Source: Oscillospiraceae bacterium (GTDB taxonomy: Bacteria; Bacillota; Clostridia; Oscillospirales; Oscillospiraceae). From it: DNA of 64,000 nucleotides. The position numbers and the translations under genes are program-made. The notes beneath the pieces are model-generated. The model saw nothing but the letters and a program-made list of their open reading frames with translations, did not search any database and was not told the DNA's origin. How positions within the stretch are numbered: position 1 is the stretch's first letter; every line of letters starts with the position of its first letter. Shown one piece after another: positions 49,337-60,780 of this stretch. The stretch spans positions 36,119 through 100,118 of the forward strand of contig CACYLY010000001.1 in the NCBI GenBank assembly GCA_902775355.1, given 5' to 3'.

Positions 49337-49366
49337 AGAATAAGCACAGAGGTGCTTATTCTTTTG
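49337..49366 (+). terminator. Rho-independent terminator after licD
   Basis: An 11-bp stem (AGAATAAGCAC / GTGCTTATTCT) with an AGAG loop and a following TTTG. It starts 7 bases after the licD stop and separates it from the HTH-LicC-LicA gene. Confidence 0.88.
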
Positions 49367-49402
49367 CCAAAGTGTTCATAAAACGAAAGGAAAACGGTGT
49401 TC

Positions 49403-51166
49403 ATGAACAGACAGACAGCTGATGTTTGGATGACCCTGGCCCAGAGCCCCTCGACCAATCAGCGGGAACTGGCCGGCTGCGCGGGAATGTCCCTGGGGGC
49501 GGTGAACAAGGCCCTGCTGGAGCTCCGCAGGCAGGGGATCGTGACGGAAACGGGGCAGCTCAGCGCCGCCGGGAGCGAATTGCTGGCAGACAACAGGCCG
49601 CGCCGGGCGATCCTGCTGGCGGCGGGACCCGGTATGCGGATGGTTCCCATCAATCAGCAGGCGCCGAAGCCGCTGCTGGAGGTGCGGGGAGAAACGCTGA
49701 TCGAGCGGCTGATCCGCCAGCTCCGGGCCGTGGGCGTGACGGAGATCGCCGTGGTAGTGGGCTTTTTGAAAGAGCAGTTCGAGTACCTGATCGACAGCTA
49801 TGGCGTCCGGCTCATCGTCAATCCGTTCTACGCATCCAAAAACAATCTCCACTCCCTGGCCCTGGGCTCCGCCTGGCTGGAGGACGCCTATATCGTCCCT
49901 TGCGATCTGTGGTTTCGGGAAAACCCCTTTCGCCGCCATGAGCTCTATTCCTGGTATCTGATGAGCGGCGAGGCCGATCCGGACAGCCGGGTCAGGGTCA
50001 ACCGCAGGATGGAGCTGGGTCCCTGCAGGGGGAAGGAGCCGGGACAGAGGATGATCGGCCTTGCCTATCTGCGGCGGGATGACGCGGTCCGTCTCCGGCG
50101 GCGCCTGTTCGCTCTGGACGGAGACGCGAAATACGACGGGGCCTTTTGGGAGGCGGTGCTGGAGGGAGAAGCGCTCCCGGCCCGTGTCGCGCCGGAGGCC
50201 TCCGTGGTGGAGATCAACACCTATGAGCAGCTGCGGGAGCTGGACGGCAATTCCGCCCAGCTGCGCTCCGAGGCGCTGGAGGCGGCCGCAAAAGCACTGG
50301 GAACTTCCACAAACTCTATCAAAGAAATCTGCGTTCTCAAAAAGGGGATGACCAACCGCTCCTTCCTGTTTTCCTGCGGGGGAGAGCGCTATATCATGCG
50401 TATTCCGGGCGAGGGCACCGACCGCCTGATCGACCGGCAGAAGGAGGCCCTGGTCTACCGGGCGATCCGGGGCAAGGGACTCTGCGACGATCCGGTGTAT
50501 CTGGACCCCCGGACCGGCTTCAAGATCACCCGCTTTTTGGAGGGCGTCCACAACTGTGACAGTGAAAACGAGCAGGAGCTGCGCCGCTGTATGAGGAAGC
50601 TCCGGGACTTTCACCGGATGGAGCTGACCGTGCCCCACCGCTTCGATCTCTTCGCCATGATCGATTTCTACGAGTCCCTGTGGAACGGAGCGCCCTCGGC
50701 CTATCGGGATTATGCAAAGACCAAGGCGGAAATCTTTGCCTTGAAGGACTACCTGGATTCTCTGGAGATCCGGGAGAGCCTGACCCATATCGACGCCGTG
50801 CCGGACAACTTCCTGTTCTATCCCGGCCCGGATGGGGAGGAGCTTCTGCAGCTGACCGACTGGGAATACGCCGGGATGCAGGATCCCCATGTGGATATCG
50901 CCATGTTCTGCATCTATGCTCTCTACGAGCGTGAGCAGATCGACCGCCTGATCGACCTGTACTTCGAGCCGGAGGGCGGCTGCGGAGAGGAGCTCAGGAC
51001 GAAGATCTACTGTTACGTCGCCGTCTGCGGCCTGCTTTGGAGCAACTGGTGCGAATTCAAGCGCTGCGAGGGCGTGGAATTCGGCGAGTATTCCCTGCGG
51101 CAGTACCGCTATGCGAAGGACTATGCCCGGCTGGCCCGCAGCAGGATGCCGGGTGAGGAGAGGTGA
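49403..51166 (+). CDS. HTH-LicC-LicA fusion: phosphocholine cytidylyltransferase and choline kinase
   Basis: A 587-residue three-part protein. Residues about 1-65 form a winged-helix HTH (STNQRELAGCAGMSLGAVNK). Residues about 70-300 form a nucleotidyltransferase with AAGPGMRMVPI and APKPLLEV, like LicC, which makes CDP-choline. Residues about 305-587 form a choline-kinase-like domain: GMTNRSFLFSC, HIDAVPDNFLF (catalytic Asp and Asn) and LTDWEYAGMQDPHVDIA (metal Asp). Such fusions are known in phosphocholine loci of Firmicutes. GTG 49397 is an alternative start. The stop overlaps a GTG of the next gene. The HTH may regulate the locus in response to choline. Confidence 0.87.
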   Translation: MNRQTADVWMTLAQSPSTNQRELAGCAGMSLGAVNKALLELRRQGIVTETGQLSAAGSELLADNRPRRAILLAAGPGMRMVPINQQAPKPLLEVRGETLIERLIRQLRAVGVTEIAVVVGFLKEQFEYLIDSYGVRLIVNPFYASKNNLHSLALGSAWLEDAYIVPCDLWFRENPFRRHELYSWYLMSGEADPDSRVRVNRRMELGPCRGKEPGQRMIGLAYLRRDDAVRLRRRLFALDGDAKYDGAFWEAVLEGEALPARVAPEASVVEINTYEQLRELDGNSAQLRSEALEAAAKALGTSTNSIKEICVLKKGMTNRSFLFSCGGERYIMRIPGEGTDRLIDRQKEALVYRAIRGKGLCDDPVYLDPRTGFKITRFLEGVHNCDSENEQELRRCMRKLRDFHRMELTVPHRFDLFAMIDFYESLWNGAPSAYRDYAKTKAEIFALKDYLDSLEIRESLTHIDAVPDNFLFYPGPDGEELLQLTDWEYAGMQDPHVDIAMFCIYALYEREQIDRLIDLYFEPEGGCGEELRTKIYCYVAVCGLLWSNWCEFKRCEGVEFGEYSLRQYRYAKDYARLARSRMPGEER

Positions 51167-53720: not shown

Positions 53721-53749
53721 TTGCATGCAGCCCGCAAATGTGCTACATT
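53721..53749 (+). promoter_or_regulatory. Possible promoter of the nucleotidyltransferase pair
   Basis: TTGCAT (53721-53726), 17-base spacer, TACATT (53744-53749), 55 bases before the start at 53804. Weak match. Confidence 0.35.
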
Positions 53750-53803
53750 GTAGCCGACCGTAAAAGGAATCCGGCAGCCGAGAACAGAGGGGCGCAGAAA
53801 ACC

Positions 53804-55018
53804 ATGCATGAAATCGAACTGAAAATCTTTTTTGAGCTTCTGCGGGCGGGGATGCTGGGAGAAAAGCCGGCGCTTGACGGCCTGCTGGAGCCGGAAACGC
53901 CCTGGGACGAGAAGCAGGTGACCGGTCTGGCTGTCCGGCACGACGTGGTGCTCACGGTGTACGCCGCCCTGGAAGGAGCGGAGGAGTCGGCGCTGCGCAG
54001 CCTGAAGCAGAGCCTGAAGCGCTTCTACGCGCCGCGCTTCGCCAAATCCGTGAACCAGAGCATGGAGGCGGAGCTGCTGCTGCAGACCCTGGAGAGCCAG
54101 GGGATCGACTGCCTGGCCCTGAAGGGCTGGCAGATGCGCGAGCTCTACGCCGACCCCCTGAGCCGCAGCATGACGGATCTGGACATCCTGATCCGGGACT
54201 ATCGCTACGAGCAGATCGGCAAGGCCCTGGAGCCCCTGGGCTATCACGGCAAAGGGCATTCCTCCTGGAAGCACGACAAGTTTGTGAAAGAGCCCTACAT
54301 GATGGTGGAGATGCACCGCCGCCTGACGGATGACAGCGACGCCATCCGCGACTGGGAGCGGGGGATTTGGGAGAGGGCGGTCCTCGAGGAGGGCTGCCGC
54401 CACCGGTACCGGATGTCGGCGGAGGATTTTTATCTCTTCCACCTGGTCCATATGCACAAGGATTTTCTCAACGGCGCCCTGGGCTTTCGCCGTCTGGCCG
54501 ATCTCTGGCTGCTGCGGAAAAAGGGAGAGGGCACCGATTGGGCGCAGGTCTCCCGGCTGCTGGAGAGCATGGGCCTGCGCCGCTTCGAGGAGAAGATGGC
54601 CCGGCTGGCCGCGGTCTGCTTCGACGGCGCCGAGCCGGATGAGGACAGCGAGACGCTCCTGGGCTTTGCGGCTGGCGGCGCGGTCTTCACCGACGATCAG
54701 CGCTACAAGCTGGGCCGCATGGTGGCCCTCTCGGGGAAATCCGCCCGCCGGGCAAAGCTCAGCTCTTTGATCAGCGCCGTGTTTTTACCCTACAGCCGCA
54801 TGAAGGCCCAGTTTCCCGCGGTGGAGAAGCACCCGATCCTGCTGCCCTGGTTCTGGCTGAAACGGATCTTCAGGTTCCTCCGGCACCCGGCCAAGCGCCT
54901 GCAGAAGCTGGATTACAGCGGCCTGGACGAGGCGCGGTACGAGCAGATGCGGCAGGTCTTCCGCGCAGGCGGCGTCCTGCCGGCAAAGAGCGAAGAACAA
55001 AGAGGAGACCCGGAATGA
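53804..55018 (+). CDS. Uncharacterised nucleotidyltransferase-fold protein, first of pair
   Basis: A 404-residue protein of the NTP_transf_5 family of uncharacterised nucleotidyltransferases. The core is DCLALKGWQMRELY followed by SRSMTDLDILIRDY (about 115-150), which holds the DxD-type metal site after a conserved Gly-Lys block. The remainder is mostly helical, with HxHMHK-like FYLFHLVHMHKDF. This family often occurs in polysaccharide loci and its substrate is unknown. The start is ATG 53804. It overlaps the next gene by ATGA, and the next gene is its paralogue. Confidence 0.78.
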   Translation: MHEIELKIFFELLRAGMLGEKPALDGLLEPETPWDEKQVTGLAVRHDVVLTVYAALEGAEESALRSLKQSLKRFYAPRFAKSVNQSMEAELLLQTLESQGIDCLALKGWQMRELYADPLSRSMTDLDILIRDYRYEQIGKALEPLGYHGKGHSSWKHDKFVKEPYMMVEMHRRLTDDSDAIRDWERGIWERAVLEEGCRHRYRMSAEDFYLFHLVHMHKDFLNGALGFRRLADLWLLRKKGEGTDWAQVSRLLESMGLRRFEEKMARLAAVCFDGAEPDEDSETLLGFAAGGAVFTDDQRYKLGRMVALSGKSARRAKLSSLISAVFLPYSRMKAQFPAVEKHPILLPWFWLKRIFRFLRHPAKRLQKLDYSGLDEARYEQMRQVFRAGGVLPAKSEEQRGDPE

Positions 55019-56250
55019 ATACCTTGACGCCCAATCAGGAGCTGCTGCTCTCCCTGCTGGCCCAGGCGTTGTTTCATCGCGAGGCGGCCCTGCCGGGAGA
55101 CGCGGACTGGTACGGTCTCTTTCAGGAGGCGAAACAGCAGGCGGTCCTGCCGCTGGTCTTCGAGAGCGTGAAGGAACAGCTTCCCGCCGACGTGAAGGAC
55201 AGCCTGGAGGAGCCGGTGGAGACCTGCCTGCTCAACAATCTCCTGGTGGACTTCGAGCACGTGGAGCTGCACAAGACCATGCGGGCCGCCGGGATCGATT
55301 ACGTGGTGATGAAGGGCAGCGCCTCAGCCGCCTATTACCCCAAGCCCATGCTGCGCATGATGGGGGACGTGGACTTTCTGATCCGTAAAGAGGACGCCGA
55401 ACGTGGGGGAGAGGCCCTGCGCACGCTTGGTTTTCGGGAAACCGCCGAGCGGGACAATCCCATCCACCAGGCCTATGTCCGCCGGGGCGAAGACGGGCGG
55501 CGCTCCGAGTGGGAGCTGCACTGGCTGCCCAACGGCATCCCCCGCAACGAGACCGGGGAGCGGATCCGCGAACTGCTCTCGGACAGCGTGGAGACGGCCC
55601 GAATTCATCAGACGGAAAACGGCTCCTACATGGTGCCGGACGATTTTCACCACGGCCTGATGCTCCTGATCCACACGGCCATGCACCTGATGCACAGCGG
55701 CGTGGGTCTGCGGCATCTCTGCGACTGGGCGGTCTTCGCGTCTCATTTCAGCGAAAAGGACTTCCGCACCCTCTTTGAGGAAAAGCTGCGGGAGCTTGGG
55801 CTCTGGGACTTTGCCGCGGCGCTGACCGCCGTGTCGGTCCGCTATCTGGGCTGTCCGGACGCACACTGGCAGGGGGATCCGCCGGAGAGTCTCACAAAGG
55901 GCCTGCTGCTGGATATCCTACGGGGCGGAAATTTCGGCAAGAAGGACCGCTCGCGTCTGAACGAGGCCAAGCTCCTGGTGAATCGCCGAGAGGGCACCGT
56001 CCGCCGGGGAGCCTGGCTGCGCAACGCCGCCAGCGCCATGAACGAGAAGGCCCGCCGGCTGATGCCTGCCGCCCGGAAGCAGCCCCTGCTGCTGCCCATC
56101 GGCTGGCTGCGGGTGGGCCTGCGTCAGTGCAGGCGCATCCTCAGCGGCCGCAGACCCGGCTTGCACCTGAAGCGCATGGTGGAGGGCGCAGCGGAGCGCA
56201 GCGCGCTGTATCAGCAGCTGCGTATCTTCAAGGACGCGGGAGATGAATAA
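55015..56250 (+). CDS. Uncharacterised nucleotidyltransferase-fold protein, second of pair
   Basis: A 411-residue paralogue of the preceding protein. It has the same order of elements: DYVVMKGSASAAYYPKPMLR then MMGDVDFLIRKED (acidic metal site, about 115-130), WELHWLPNG, and FHHGLMLLIHTAMHLMHSG in the helical half. The two are coupled by ATGA and could act as a pair. No signal peptide is seen, so they are cytoplasmic. Likely role is activation or modification of a sugar or polymer, but no reaction is known for the family. Confidence 0.78.
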   Translation: MNTLTPNQELLLSLLAQALFHREAALPGDADWYGLFQEAKQQAVLPLVFESVKEQLPADVKDSLEEPVETCLLNNLLVDFEHVELHKTMRAAGIDYVVMKGSASAAYYPKPMLRMMGDVDFLIRKEDAERGGEALRTLGFRETAERDNPIHQAYVRRGEDGRRSEWELHWLPNGIPRNETGERIRELLSDSVETARIHQTENGSYMVPDDFHHGLMLLIHTAMHLMHSGVGLRHLCDWAVFASHFSEKDFRTLFEEKLRELGLWDFAAALTAVSVRYLGCPDAHWQGDPPESLTKGLLLDILRGGNFGKKDRSRLNEAKLLVNRREGTVRRGAWLRNAASAMNEKARRLMPAARKQPLLLPIGWLRVGLRQCRRILSGRRPGLHLKRMVEGAAERSALYQQLRIFKDAGDE

Positions 56251-56252
56251 AT

Positions 56253-56333
56253 GCAAATGTCAAGGTATGACCGTGAAATGTCCGGCTATATCTTGACATT
56301 TGCGCTGCTTTATACTATAATATCTTGACATTT
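56253..56333 (+). promoter_or_regulatory. Repeated operator-like motif over the kinase promoter
   Basis: The motif ATATCTTGACATTT occurs at 56288-56301 and 56320-56333. A near-perfect inverted copy (GCAAATGTCAAGGTAT, 15 of 16 positions) lies at 56253-56268, and a partial inverted AAATGTC at about 56275. One copy contains the -35 box and another follows the -10 box, as expected of repressor sites. The kinase downstream begins with an HTH domain, so autoregulation is a reasonable inference. Confidence 0.75.
56293..56321 (+). promoter_or_regulatory. Consensus sigma-A promoter of the HTH-kinase operon
   Basis: TTGACA (56293-56298), 17-base spacer, TATAAT (56316-56321): a perfect match to consensus, 32 bases before the ATG. 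Confidence 0.92.
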
Positions 56334-56352
56334 CAGGCGAGGACGGTATGCT

Positions 56353-57741
56353 ATGGAATATATGGACGTGCGTCGGGCGGCGGAGCTCTGGCAGATGCCG
56401 GAGCGGAAGGTCACTTCCCTGTGCAGGGAGGGCCGGATCCCCGGCGCGAAAAAAGAGGGGAAGCTCTGGCAGATCCCGGTTGGCAGTCTCCGCCCGCTGG
56501 ACGCCAGGACCCGGGAATACGCCGCCTCCCGGCAGGAGCCGGAGACCGCCTGCGCGCCTGACGCCGGGGGAAGAGCGGTCCAGGCCTTTCGGGAGACCTA
56601 TCACAAGGAGCCGGAGACCACGGCCTTCACCCCTTACCGGGTCTGCCTCATCGGCGCCCACAGCGACCACAACCTGGGCAAGGTCACAGGCATGGCCATC
56701 GACAAGGGGATCCACATTGCCTGCGGACCCAAGCAGAACGGCGTGGTGGAGATCCGCTCCCTGCAGTTTCCCAAGCGGGCCCAGTGGCACGTCACGTCGA
56801 CACCGCCGGTAAAGCAGAACGACTGGGCGGACCATCTGCGGGGCGCCACCATCGCCCTGGCCCAGCGTTTTCCGCTGCATGTGGGCCTCTGCGCCGTGCT
56901 GGACGGGGAGCTGCCCATCGGCGGCCTTTCCAGCTCCGCGGCGGTGATCATCAGCTTTCTGTCCGTGCTCTGCCGTCTGAACGGCATCCGGCTGGGGCCG
57001 GAGGAGCTGATCCAGATCTCCCTGGAGGCGGAAAACCGCTATGTGGGCGTGGCCTGCGGCAAGCTGGACCAGAGCTGCGAGGTCTACTGCCGGAAGGACA
57101 AGCTTCTGTACCTGGACACCCTTGACGGCAGCTTCGAGCTGATCCCCAAGGCGCCGGATATGAAGCCCTTCGAGATCGCCGTGTTCTTCAGCGGCATGGA
57201 GCGGAGCCTGGCCGGGACCCAGTTCAACATGCGGGTGGACGAGGCCCGGGCCGCCGCCTACAGCCTGAAGGCCTTCGCGGGCCTGCCCTACGGGAAGATC
57301 GGGGAGACCAACCTGCGGGAGGTGCCGGAGGAGGTTTTCCGCCGGTATCGGGACCGCCTGCCGGAGAGCTTTGCCCGCCGGGCGGAGCACTGGTACGGGG
57401 AATTCCGCAGGGTGGAGGCGGGAGCCGAGGCCTGGCGCCGGGGCGATCTGGAGGAATTCGGGCGGCTCAGCTTTCAGAGCGGCCGCAGCAGCATCGACAA
57501 CTGGCAGACCGGCTCCCCGGAGCTGATCCGCCTCTATGAGATCATGACCCAAACCGAGGGCATCTACGGCGGCCGCTTCAGCGGCGCGGGCTTCAAGGGC
57601 TGCTGCGTGGCCCTCATCGACCCGAGCCTGCGGGAGCAGATCCTGGCGCAGGTGGAGCGGGCTTATCTGGAGAGCTTTCCGGGCCTGCGGGGGCGGTACA
57701 GCGCCCACATCTGCCATATGGGAAACGGGGTGGAGCTGTGA
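56353..57741 (+). CDS. HTH-domain fused to GHMP sugar kinase, galacturonokinase-like
   Basis: A 462-residue fusion. Residues about 1-50 form an excisionase/MerR-type HTH (MDVRRAAELWQMPERKVTSL, then REGRIPGAKKEGKLWQIP). Residues about 70-462 form a GHMP kinase: motif 1 YRVCLIGAHSDHNLGKV (about 95-111), motif 2 PIGGLSSSAAVII, the catalytic Asp in CGKLDQ, and motif 3 GRFSGAGFKGCC. From memory, motif 1 (GAHxDH rather than galactokinase GEHTDY) and the RFSGAGFxGCC block resemble plant galacturonokinase, which makes galacturonate 1-phosphate. It is followed by a sugar-1-P nucleotidyltransferase (GTGA overlap), a UDP-GlcA epimerase and a UDP-Glc dehydrogenase, a uronate context. Promoter and operator motifs lie just upstream. 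Confidence 0.85.
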   Translation: MEYMDVRRAAELWQMPERKVTSLCREGRIPGAKKEGKLWQIPVGSLRPLDARTREYAASRQEPETACAPDAGGRAVQAFRETYHKEPETTAFTPYRVCLIGAHSDHNLGKVTGMAIDKGIHIACGPKQNGVVEIRSLQFPKRAQWHVTSTPPVKQNDWADHLRGATIALAQRFPLHVGLCAVLDGELPIGGLSSSAAVIISFLSVLCRLNGIRLGPEELIQISLEAENRYVGVACGKLDQSCEVYCRKDKLLYLDTLDGSFELIPKAPDMKPFEIAVFFSGMERSLAGTQFNMRVDEARAAAYSLKAFAGLPYGKIGETNLREVPEEVFRRYRDRLPESFARRAEHWYGEFRRVEAGAEAWRRGDLEEFGRLSFQSGRSSIDNWQTGSPELIRLYEIMTQTEGIYGGRFSGAGFKGCCVALIDPSLREQILAQVERAYLESFPGLRGRYSAHICHMGNGVEL

Positions 57742-58472
57742 ACTGCGTGATCCTGGCCGCGGGCTACGCCACCCGGCTTTACCCGCTGACGGAGCATTTT
57801 CCCAAGCCCCTGCTGCCCGTGGGAGAGAAGACGATCCTGGACTGGCTGCTGGACGATCTGAAAAGCGCCGGCGGGATGGAGGAGATCGTTCTGGTCTCCA
57901 ACCATCGCTATGCCGAGACTTTCCGGAACTGGGCCTCATTCCGGCCGGAACCGATCCGGGTACTGGACGACGGCAGCGAGAGCAATGAGCGCCGCCTGGG
58001 CGCCGTGCGGGACCTGGCCCTGGCCCTGGACGAGGTGGGAACGGAGAAGGAGACCCTGGTGATGGCAGGGGACAATCTGCTGGATTTCTCCCTGATCCGT
58101 TTTCTCGATTACGCCCGGGAAAGGGGGAGCAGCTGCGCCATGCGCTACGCCGAGCCCTCCCGGGAGCGGCTGCGGCACTGCGGCGTGGCCGTGGTGGATG
58201 CGGACGACCGGATCCTCGGCATGACCGAGAAGTCGCCGGAGCCGCCCTCCCACTGGGTCTGCCCGCCCTTCTATGTCTACACGCCCCGGGCCCTGAGGCT
58301 GCTGGGGCAGGCGCTGGAGAGCGGCTGCGGCGCCGACGCGCCGGGAAGCTTTCTGGCCTGGGTCGCCGGGCGGCTGCCGGTCTATGCCATGGAGATGCCC
58401 GGCAGGCGCTACGATATCGGCGATCCGGAGAGCTATGAGCAAGTGAAAAAGGAGTACCGAGGCATATGCTGA
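57738..58472 (+). CDS. Sugar-1-phosphate nucleotidyltransferase
   Basis: A 244-residue NTP_transferase enzyme. The pyrophosphorylase motif LAAGYATRLYPLTEHFPKPL (about 6-25) is followed by the metal site MAGDNLLDFS (about 110-119) and GITEK-like GMTEKSPEPP. It activates a sugar 1-phosphate with an NTP to give a nucleotide sugar. Its GTG start overlaps the stop of the HTH-kinase gene, so it most likely uses the kinase product, possibly making a UDP-uronic acid. The substrate is inferred only from this coupling. Similar short enzymes make GDP-, UDP- or dTDP-sugars. Confidence 0.85.
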   Translation: MNCVILAAGYATRLYPLTEHFPKPLLPVGEKTILDWLLDDLKSAGGMEEIVLVSNHRYAETFRNWASFRPEPIRVLDDGSESNERRLGAVRDLALALDEVGTEKETLVMAGDNLLDFSLIRFLDYARERGSSCAMRYAEPSRERLRHCGVAVVDADDRILGMTEKSPEPPSHWVCPPFYVYTPRALRLLGQALESGCGADAPGSFLAWVAGRLPVYAMEMPGRRYDIGDPESYEQVKKEYRGIC

Positions 58473-59551
58473 CGCCGAATGTGACACTGGAAAAGAAAAC
58501 GATCTTCGTGACCGGCGCCGCCGGCTTTATCGGCTTCTTCCTCTCCAAGCGCCTGCTGGAAGAGGTGGAGGGCGTGCGTGTTGTGGGGATCGACAACATG
58601 AACGATTACTACGAGGTCTCGCTGAAGGAGTACCGCCTGGCACAGCTGCGGCGATATCCCAACTTCAGCTTCCTGCAGATCAATATCGCCGACAAGGCGG
58701 CGGTGAACGAGGCCTTTGCCAAATATGAGCCGACGGTGGTGGTGAACCTGGCCGCCCAGGCCGGCGTGCGCTATTCCATCACCCATCCGGACGTGTATAT
58801 CGAGTCCAACCTGGTGGGCTTCTTCAATCTGCTGGAGGCCTGCCGCCACTCCTACGACGGGGGCAAGACCGGCGTGGAGCACCTGGTCTACGCCAGCAGC
58901 TCCTCGGTCTACGGGGGCAACAAAAAGGTGCCCTTCTCCACCGAGGACAAGGTGGACAATCCCGTCTCCCTCTACGCCGCCACCAAGAAGTCCGACGAGC
59001 TGCTGGCCCACGCCTACGCCAAGCTCTACGCCATCCCCTCCACGGGCCTGCGCTTTTTCACGGTCTACGGCCCGGCGGGGCGGCCGGACATGGCCTACTT
59101 CGGCTTCACTAACAAGCTGCGGGCGGGCCAGACCATTCAAATTTTCAACTACGGCAACTGTGAACGGGACTTCACCTATGTGGACGACATCGTGGAGGGC
59201 ATCCTGCGGGTCATGCGCCGGGCGCCGGAGCGTGAAACCGGGGAGGACGGGCTGCCTCTGCCGCCTTACGCGGTCTACAACATCGGCGGCAGCCGGCCGG
59301 AGAACCTGCTGGACTTCGTGCGCATCCTCTCGGAGGAGCTGGTCCGCGCCGGGGTGCTGCCGGAGGACTATGACTTTGAAGCCCACAAGGAGCTGGCCCC
59401 CATGCAGCCCGGGGACGTGCCCGTGACCTACGCGGACGCGGAGGCCCTGGAGCGGGACTTCGGCTTCCGGCCGGAGATCGACCTGAGGACAGGGCTGCGC
59501 CGATTTGCCGAATGGTATCATGACTATTACATGGGAGGGGAGCAGAAATGA
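58466..59551 (+). CDS. UDP-glucuronate 4-epimerase
   Basis: A 361-residue extended SDR enzyme that interconverts UDP-glucuronate and UDP-galacturonate. The NAD motif [15 protein letters not shown] is at about 17-31, followed by [20 protein letters not shown] (typical of the GAE/LpsL group), [19 protein letters not shown], and the catalytic YAATKKSDE (Tyr-x3-Lys). The [16 protein letters not shown] block is diagnostic of UDP-GlcA epimerases. It overlaps the previous gene by 7 bases and the next by 4. The dehydrogenase downstream gives its substrate. Confidence 0.93.
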
Positions 59552-60780
59552 GGATCACCGTTGCCGGCGTGGGCTATGTGGGCCTGTCGCTGGCGGTGCT
59601 GCTGGCGCAGCGCCACGAGGTCACCGCCGTCACTACGACGCCGGCCAAGGCGGAGCTCATCAACAGCCGCCGCAGCCCGATCCAGGACAAGGAGCTGGAG
59701 GACTACCTGAGCCAAAAGCCCCTGCGCCTCACCGCCACCTGCGACCGGGAGAGCGCCTACCGCAGCGCGGAGCTGGTGATCATCGCCACCCCCACCAACT
59801 ACGAGCCCAAGCGGGGCTTTTTCGACACCAGCGCCGTGGAGGACGTGATCCGGCGGGTGCTGGCGGTGAATCCGGAAGCGACCATGGTCATCAAGAGCAC
59901 CGTGCCCGTGGGCTACACCGCCTCGGTGCGGGAGAAGTTCGGCTGCGGCCGCATCCTCTTCAGCCCCGAATTCCTGCGGGAGAGCCGAGCGCTTTACGAT
60001 AACCTGCACCCCAGCCGCATCATCGTGGGCACGGACCCGAACGACCCCGCTCTCTGTGAAACGGCCCGCCGTTTTGCCGGCCTCCTGCGGGAGGCGGCCC
60101 TGGAGGAAGAGGTGCCGACCCTGCTCATGGGCTTTACGGAGGCCGAGGCGGTGAAGCTCTTCGCCAACACCTACCTGGCCCTGCGGGTCAGCTACTTCAA
60201 CGAGCTGGACACCTATGCCGAGCTCAAGGGCCTGAACGCCCGGGAGATCATCGAGGGCGTCTGCCTGGACCCCCGCATCGGCAGTCACTACAACAACCCC
60301 AGCTTCGGTTACGGGGGCTACTGCCTGCCCAAGGACACCAAGCAGCTGCTGGCCAATTATGCGGACGTGCCGGAGAATCTGATCCAGGCCATCGTGGAGT
60401 CCAACCGGACCCGGAAGGACTTCATCGCCGACCGGGTGCTGGAAAAGGCGGGCTACTATTCCGCCAACGCCAGCTGGAACGCGGAGCGGGAGAGGCCCGT
60501 CACCGTGGGCGTTTTCCGACTCACCATGAAGTCCAACAGCGACAATTTCCGCCAGAGCAGCATCCAGGGCGTGATGAAGCGCATCAAGGCCAAGGGGGCC
60601 TCCGTGATCGTCTACGAGCCCACCCTGCCGGACGGGGAGACCTTCTTCGGCAGCCGCATCGTGAACGATCTGGCGGAGTTCAAGCGCCTGTCCGACGCTA
60701 TCGTTGCCAACCGCTACGACGCCTGCCTGGACGATGTGGCGGAGAAGGTCTATACCCGGGACCTGTTCCGAAGAGATTGA
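59548..60780 (+). CDS. ugd: UDP-glucose 6-dehydrogenase
   Basis: A 410-residue nucleotide-sugar dehydrogenase that oxidises UDP-glucose to UDP-glucuronate with two NAD+. The Rossmann motif [15 protein letters not shown] is at about 5-19, [10 protein letters not shown] follows, then [10 protein letters not shown], and the catalytic Cys lies in [13 protein letters not shown] near residue 256. A C-terminal UDP-binding domain is present. It is coupled to the epimerase by ATGA, so together they supply UDP-GalA. The shorter type without a lengthy C-terminus resembles Ugd/TuaD-like enzymes; action on UDP-GlcNAc-type sugars is less likely. Confidence 0.92.

Follow-up and report, generated by a model that had tools for sequence, protein, structure and literature searches.

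Our analysis suggests that a galactokinase-family enzyme of an Oscillospiraceae bacterium, probably a uronate kinase, doubles as a local repressor of its own operon by means of a fused helix-turn-helix (HTH) domain that would act on a palindrome in its promoter; we consider this reading likely. The kinase probably controls its own operon since the fused HTH is accompanied by a palindrome over the -35 box that is common among relatives with the HTH and absent from those without it. The gene lies in a 64-kb stretch of genomic DNA, hereafter the window, with the following features.

56253..56268, minus strand: outer-left operator half-site GCAAATGTCAAGGTAT, an inverted copy of the right arm (15/16)
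56276..56283, minus strand: inner-left half-site AAATGTCC, 21 bp after the outer half-site
56276..56301, no strand: putative core operator, a 26-bp imperfect palindrome AAATGTCC-N10-TGACATTT, from the sequence and relatives
56288..56303, plus strand: right half-site ATATCTTGACATTTGC with the -35 box inside, from the sequence
56293..56298, plus strand: -35 box TTGACA, promoter scan
56316..56321, plus strand: -10 box TATAAT, spacer 17, promoter scan
56320..56333, plus strand: direct copy ATATCTTGACATTT, downstream, over the expected transcription start, from the sequence
56353..57741, plus strand: HTH-GHMP kinase gene, 462 aa
56359..56490, plus strand: HTH_17 domain (Pfam), residues 3-46, predicted Xis/BldC-like fold with a wing
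56533..56559, plus strand: linker, residues 61-69, pLDDT <50 in the structure model
56575..57738, plus strand: GHMP (galactokinase-like) kinase domain with the RVCLIGAHSDHN motif, probable uronate kinase
57738..58472, plus strand: sugar-1-phosphate nucleotidyltransferase, the next gene, family match
58466..59551, plus strand: NAD-dependent epimerase/dehydratase, family match
59548..60780, plus strand: UDP-glucose 6-dehydrogenase-like gene, NCBIfam scores

The initial annotation had described a perfect TTGACA-17-TATAAT promoter, which we confirm at 56293-56321 (12/12 match to the consensus boxes), covered by two direct copies and one inverted copy (15 of 16 letters) of a repeat. All three copies are present, with ATATCTTGACATTT on the plus strand at 56288-56301 and 56320-56333; a fourth half-site, AAATGTCC at 56276-56283, had been missed, and the arrangement is more aptly called a palindrome that includes the -35 box. 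The reversed half-sites start at 56255 and 56276 (21 bp apart) and the forward ones at 56293 and 56325 (32 bp apart). The inner pair forms the palindrome, with the -35 box as its right half and the left half at a fixed spacing, and is the part conserved in relatives. Outer arms resembling those of the window occur at L092-L095, L097, L099, and L101; among the HTH-kinase upstream regions read, the downstream direct copy was found in the window and a 95%-identical relative (L041/L092) only. The downstream repeat is also the -35 box of a weaker second promoter match, TTGACA-16-TATGCT at 56325-56352. An invertible promoter was rejected by inspection, the arms being short and the -35 box lying within.

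The top inverted repeat in the 150 nt upstream of the kinase was equalled by 0/100 dinucleotide shuffles (p 0.01), and no terminator-like site was detected at 56150-56450. On both strands of the window, TTGACATTT has three copies, all at the kinase promoter. The pattern CTTGACATTT has 8 copies in the 2.86-Mb genome, 3 of them at the kinase promoter, and its backwards-read form has 1; beside the remaining five copies, a regular expression for an HTH of the kinase type gave no match. The initial annotation had allowed that the motif might occur randomly across the genome; it is not scattered in this way.

The protein begins, as had been noticed from the sequence, with a DNA-binding HTH joined to a galactokinase-like GHMP kinase. 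Scanned alone, the domain scores 29.1 bits against Pfam HTH_17 (cut-off 27), and in the whole-protein scan 24.4 bits, under that cut-off. The full-length model has a mean pLDDT of 89.9, and the HTH modelled alone (pLDDT 80.8) adopts a strand-helix-helix-wing arrangement. Its top Foldseek match is lambda Xis (1rh6; TM 0.64/0.73, rmsd 1.9), with BldC lower in the list (6ama; TM 0.61/0.68, rmsd 1.9), both at weak E-values (0.095 and 1.0); searching the HTH profile against PDB sequences gave nothing significant. Xis and BldC are small proteins without an enzyme part, unlike the fusion described here. An alignment of 25 kinase HTHs, made without L092, L094, L103, L109, L115, and L128, shows nine invariant residues: W13, R18, R25, K34, W39, P42, P48, D50, and R52.

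The enzyme is a member of the GHMP kinase superfamily: GalKase_gal_bdg, GHMP_kinases_N, and GHMP_kinases_C all score above their Pfam cut-offs, and the fold is that of galactokinases, with matches to human galactokinase 1wuu by sequence (1.8e-43) and to 6qje by Foldseek (1.7e-32). The solved galactokinases matched lack an HTH, the match beginning at residue 63 or later. All five listed NCBIfam galactokinase models stay below their cut-offs, the best being TIGR00131 (186.7 bits, cut-off 226.65). The RVCLIGAHSDHN motif aligns with RVNLIGEHTDYN of human galactokinase, GAHSDHN standing against GEHTDYN in galactokinases, so that Ala102 replaces a Glu that in galactokinases contacts the sugar; the plant galacturonokinase has a similar GAH-DHQ stretch. 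Arg96, Ala102, Asp105, and Asp239 are invariant across 37 aligned kinases, namely that of the window and those of 25/30 HTH-positive and 11/50 HTH-less loci from the best 80 of at least 522 relatives. Arg96 and Asp239 correspond to catalytic residues of galactokinases.

How are such kinases distributed? Relatives both with and without the HTH turned up. Counting the own genome, matches at 1e-60 were obtained by whole-genome search in 3/150 family genomes, and at 1e-70 in 33/394 order genomes. A contig scan confirmed at least 522 relatives, the best 80 of which were used. Thirty of these have the HTH and 50 lack it, proportions that are not prevalences because the set is the best 80 of at least 522; L126, which ends at a contig edge, is scored as HTH-less, and L128, which has a frameshift, as HTH-positive. 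The 80 loci come from metagenome-assembled or uncultured genomes, largely labelled as Oscillospiraceae, Clostridia, or similar groups of the ruminant gut. Bacteroidales or Thermoguttaceae are named for some few, which may reflect misbinning. In a quick tree of the kinase domain (99 rows), carriers of the HTH group together. The label switches 12 times on the best tree, at least 2 of these changes being forced by the starred branches; half of the inner branches are weak. One gain of the HTH followed by repeated losses fits this tree, which is blind to gain versus loss. In L120 and L129 the linker is partly kept and the HTH is gone.

Among the relatives analysed, the presence of the palindrome follows that of the HTH. 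We scored upstream regions with the rule (T/G)(A/G)TC(A/C)-N9-TTGA(C/T). Matches were found in 20/32 HTH-kinase and 0/66 HTH-less upstream regions among the 98 tree rows with upstream sequence; because the HTH-positive regions also served to define the rule, the positive count may be inflated, but not the zero. HTH-less genes are often internal to operons and have no promoter, and promoter presence therefore explains part of this contrast. For this reason more weight belongs to the comparison restricted to genes preceded by a promoter-like site, each box allowing a single mismatch at most, where the rule matched 13/20 HTH-kinase and 0/11 HTH-less genes, although the latter set is small. Fisher tests on the two comparisons gave 7e-13 and 4e-4, with loci treated as independent though they are kin; in an independent-pairs test of the association between HTH and operator, the number of pairs was too small for significance. 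Where spacings of 6-13 were permitted, 22/25 regions had a spacing of 9.

Within 150 nt upstream of the gene, the top inverted repeat reached p ≤0.02 in 21/34 HTH-positive regions, 15 of those 21 with TTGAC in the right arm, compared with 4/76 HTH-less regions, none with TTGAC. An inverted repeat on the -35 box (score ≥8) was present at 16/26 HTH-kinase loci versus 15/311 background promoter-like sites; by our reading, the 15 include six of the kinase operators themselves, taken from the opposite strand, and the second operator of L101. Within the same loci, an inverted half-site accompanied 10/16 kinase promoters versus 4/97 other promoter-like sites with strict boxes, and 20/27 versus 12/170 with looser boxes. 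The possibility raised at the outset, that homologues of the fusion lack such repeats, does not apply: in most homologues with the HTH the -35 box lies in a comparable inverted repeat, which the HTH-less homologues do not have. The arm letters differ among species and match within a promoter, as in L117 (GCGGAATGTCAA/TTGACATTCCGC) and L118 (CCCCCGTTTGTCAA/TTGACAAACGGGGG). Over 24 pairs, left arms agreed with their own right arm at 4.17 of 9 flanking positions and with those of others at 3.20 (permutation p 0.0017, with loci treated as independent though kin). The near copies L041 and L092 are both included in this test and in the 150-nt repeat test.

Twelve of the 32 HTH-kinase genes miss the rule. 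Four (L094, L101, L118, and L121) have significant repeats with other spacing or letters, and in five (L103, L106, L107, L112, and L116) visual inspection shows sites that are partial or shifted. In L104, with an intact HTH, the likely promoter lies about 200 nt upstream and no N9 site is present; in L109, whose HTH is also intact, no operator was seen in the upstream region. Finally, L115 (6001-7410) has a degenerate HTH in which R18, R25, and W39 are replaced, and has no operator, as expected if HTH and operator go together. L115 is apparently a case of natural loss.

The genes behind the kinase recur in the order kinase, nucleotidyltransferase, epimerase, UDP-glucose dehydrogenase. Within the best 80 of at least 522 relatives, a nucleotidyltransferase relative lies downstream of the HTH-kinase in 23/30 loci and an epimerase in 19/30, some contigs being too short. 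In the window, we read the 58466..59551 product as a probable UDP-glucuronate 4-epimerase, its exact activity being predicted from sequence. The 59548..60780 product scores 305.6 against the nucleotide sugar dehydrogenase model (cut-off 189.8), and its best match is the UDP-glucose 6-dehydrogenase model (561.8, below the cut-off of 757); the next genes are rmlA and rmlB, each scoring above its cut-off. Directly upstream of the kinase stands an epimerase or dehydrogenase gene in 16/50 HTH-less and 0/30 HTH-kinase loci of the same 80, or 16/46 and 0/25 without the loci having less than 1.2 kb upstream (4 HTH-less, 5 HTH-positive), which indicates that the HTH accompanies a promoter-proximal position of the kinase gene.

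Directly upstream of the window operon are two tandem NTP_transf_5 (PF14907) genes, 53738-55018 and 55015-56250, with relatives in L092-L094. Farther upstream, 49397-51166 encodes a second HTH-enzyme fusion, with a winged-HTH-like start (weak matches) and NTP transferase and choline-kinase-like domains; a further NTP transferase gene and one for a BCCT transporter come next. A perfect 11-bp hairpin and TTTT at 49337-49366, upstream of 49397, look like an ordinary terminator.

Regarding the substrate, L101 carries a second operator copy at 186 (186-210), before a gene at 276-1652. The best solved relative of its product is the LplD alpha-galacturonidase (PDB 3fef, 3.4e-139; next match 1.2e-26), and NCBIfam places it in an alpha-galactosidase subfamily, below cut-off. 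Such an LplD-type gene was found in L101 only (1/80 loci, the best 80 of at least 522 relatives). An alpha-galacturonidase behind the operator, together with the UDP-sugar genes of the operon, points to galacturonate. The operon neighbours, the invariant Ala102, and this L101 gene thus make a circumstantial case, drawn from sequence, that galacturonate may be the substrate of the kinase.

In a regulon search of 61 genus genomes, we found TATCTTGACATTT at 16 places in 11 genomes, 6 of them at the kinase promoter (3 genomes); beside the other 10, no HTH of the kinase type matched. In 33 HTH-kinase genomes, AATRTCA-N9-TTGACATT with at most one mismatch had matches in 29, beyond the kinase operators mostly at scattered sites. 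Six non-kinase sites inspected fall within or next to genes with no evident connection to uronates, two of them (L248 and L249) intergenic. Among the sites inspected, the only convincing second target is the one before the L101 alpha-galacturonidase gene.

HTHs of the kinase type occur in 56/120 family genomes, and a profile built from the kinase HTHs was used to find other carriers. These include Fic proteins (Pfam identified L174 and L182, and similarity to these two the rest), AAA-ATPase_like/PDDEXK_9 proteins (L172 by Pfam), and a family of LuxR-type regulators (L200 by Pfam). A further carrier, L214, has a sub-threshold PI3/PI4-kinase match only, and by reading we judge its enzyme part to be HipA-like. 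Promoter-overlapping repeats at p 0.05 were found for 19/33 HTH-kinases, 13/25 other fusions, and 6/100 background sites (drawn from 303), and for 0/21 stand-alone HTH genes. The 13 repeat-bearing non-kinase fusions are eight Fic proteins (L174, L182-L184, L189, L194, L199, and L203), four AAA-ATPases (L172, L173, L177, and L185), and L214. Several are close kin: beyond the HTH, where compared, L172/L173/L177 are 82 to 97% identical and L182/L183/L184/L189 88 to 95%. The repeats in their promoters are either inverted or direct, the latter 20-43 bp apart, with letters that depend on the enzyme class: Fic fusions have ATCGGCAAAAA/TTTTTGCCGAT or direct copies of ATTATTCCGAT, and AAA-ATPase fusions have GCAAACGAAAAAATATC/GATATTTTTTCGTTTGC and AAAAAGAAGAATGTCGA/TCGACATTCTTCTTTTT. 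The AAA-ATPase fusions L175, L176, and L221 showed no promoter repeats at p 0.05. Neither did the LuxR-type set (L196, L200, L201, L205, L206, L209, and L215), proteins of about 400 aa with the same HTH at the N terminus and, in L200, a LuxR-type HTH at the C terminus. An operator on the own promoter is therefore not a property of every carrier of this HTH, failing for the stand-alone genes and the LuxR-type fusions.

In the mechanism that we favor, the N-terminal Xis/BldC-type HTH would bind the palindrome at 56276-56301 and probably also occupy the flanking half-sites at 56253-56268 and 56320-56333. As the -35 box is part of the right half-site, the bound protein would keep RNA polymerase off the promoter. 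In its simplest form, a dimer on the palindrome would sterically occlude the -35 box, giving negative autoregulation, and bound HTH-kinase would limit expression of the kinase and of the nucleotide-sugar genes that follow. The extra half-sites could also accommodate a Xis/BldC-like filament. Binding of the substrate or a nucleotide may in turn alter DNA binding. Autoregulation as first proposed from the arrangement gains support from the association between motif and HTH, and it is still read from sequence, as is the direction of control.

Alternatively, the HTH could activate the promoter, or form a Xis/BldC-like filament rather than a repressing dimer, a scenario we regard as rather unlikely. 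In the Foldseek comparison lambda Xis comes closest to the predicted fold and BldC matches as well, both weakly by E-value, and the extra half-sites at 21 and 32 bp would permit multimers. According to PMC5859096, BldC binds direct repeats as head-to-tail multimers, whereas the conserved core at the kinase promoter is inverted around the -35 box. The spacer here has the optimal 17 nt, moreover, which differs from MerR-type activation. MerR-type activators act on promoters with long spacers.

Distinctly less probable is that the palindrome serves a separate, trans-acting repressor, the fused HTH doing another job or none. Several repressor families bind TGTCA/TGACA-type palindromes, and the stand-alone HTH relatives lack promoter repeats (0/21), which would agree with such a view. 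Yet among the relatives analysed the motif tracks the HTH (20/32 versus 0/66) and is gone where the HTH is degenerate (L115), and beside the genus-wide TATCTTGACATTT matches no such HTH was matched but that of the kinase. It is very doubtful that the HTH is vestigial or merely structural, having drifted onto the kinase. Frequent switches of the HTH label on the kinase tree and the disordered linker would fit this, but nine residues are invariant in 25 HTH sequences and most of the genes retain a matching operator. The upstream gene ends at 56250, three bases ahead of the repeat. That the repeat forms a hairpin in the transcript of this gene, terminates it, or arose by chance we find hardly credible given the shuffles, the lack of a terminator-like site, the position of the -35 box in an arm at other loci too, and the second copy before an unrelated gene in L101.

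The HTH-kinase has, by its sequence, the anatomy of a self-regulating (trigger) enzyme, with a DNA-binding domain on the enzyme and an operator-like palindrome on its own promoter. PutA, NadR, and BirA are DNA-binding metabolic enzymes of this type that control genes of their own pathways. The HTH-kinase would resemble them in directing a DNA-binding domain to its own pathway genes and differs in its GHMP enzyme fold and its HTH_17, Xis/BldC-like HTH. The ROK repressors Mlc, NagC, and XylR combine an HTH with a sugar-kinase-like fold and use palindromic operators. The HTH-kinase shares the HTH on such a fold and has a putative palindromic operator; the ROK kinase fold, however, is unrelated to GHMP, and ROK repressors are generally not active kinases, whereas the HTH-kinase keeps Arg96 and Asp239, invariant in 37 sequences. 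We rate the HTH-kinase as a new form of DNA-binding trigger enzyme, trigger enzymes as such being already known.

In agreement with the initial annotation, which knew of no described enzyme of this layout, we found no HTH-GHMP kinase among the papers matched in an open-access library. One paper concerns a zebrafish glucuronokinase (PMC3938481). For Fic proteins, passages of PMC2686095 suggest that fused HTHs may regulate fic expression; the fusions there involve other HTH subfamilies, mostly ArsR-like, and those passages name no operators, whereas the Fic fusions described here carry the HTH_17 module and repeats on their own promoters.

Overall, the sequences permit a wider proposal, which we advance tentatively and rate at somewhat short of even: this Xis/BldC-like HTH_17 may be a portable self-wiring module of Oscillospirales-type gut bacteria, set at the N terminus of unrelated enzymes (the GHMP uronate kinase, Fic, AAA-ATPase/PD-(D/E)XK, and a weakly assigned kinase-like protein). 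The fusions would carry an operator on their own promoter, with letters specific to the class and copies matched within the promoter. The kinase branch would sense galacturonate or its phosphate and control uronate salvage, and in one lineage also the release of the sugar by the alpha-galacturonidase. Should the kinase indeed repress its own operon, a further kinase fold would join ROK and NadR in uniting enzyme and repressor in one chain, with its catalytic residues kept, and the natural losses and letter-matched operators would show how a small HTH shifts its DNA specificity. It would also mean that uncultured gut and rumen bacteria possess a uronate-linked switch.
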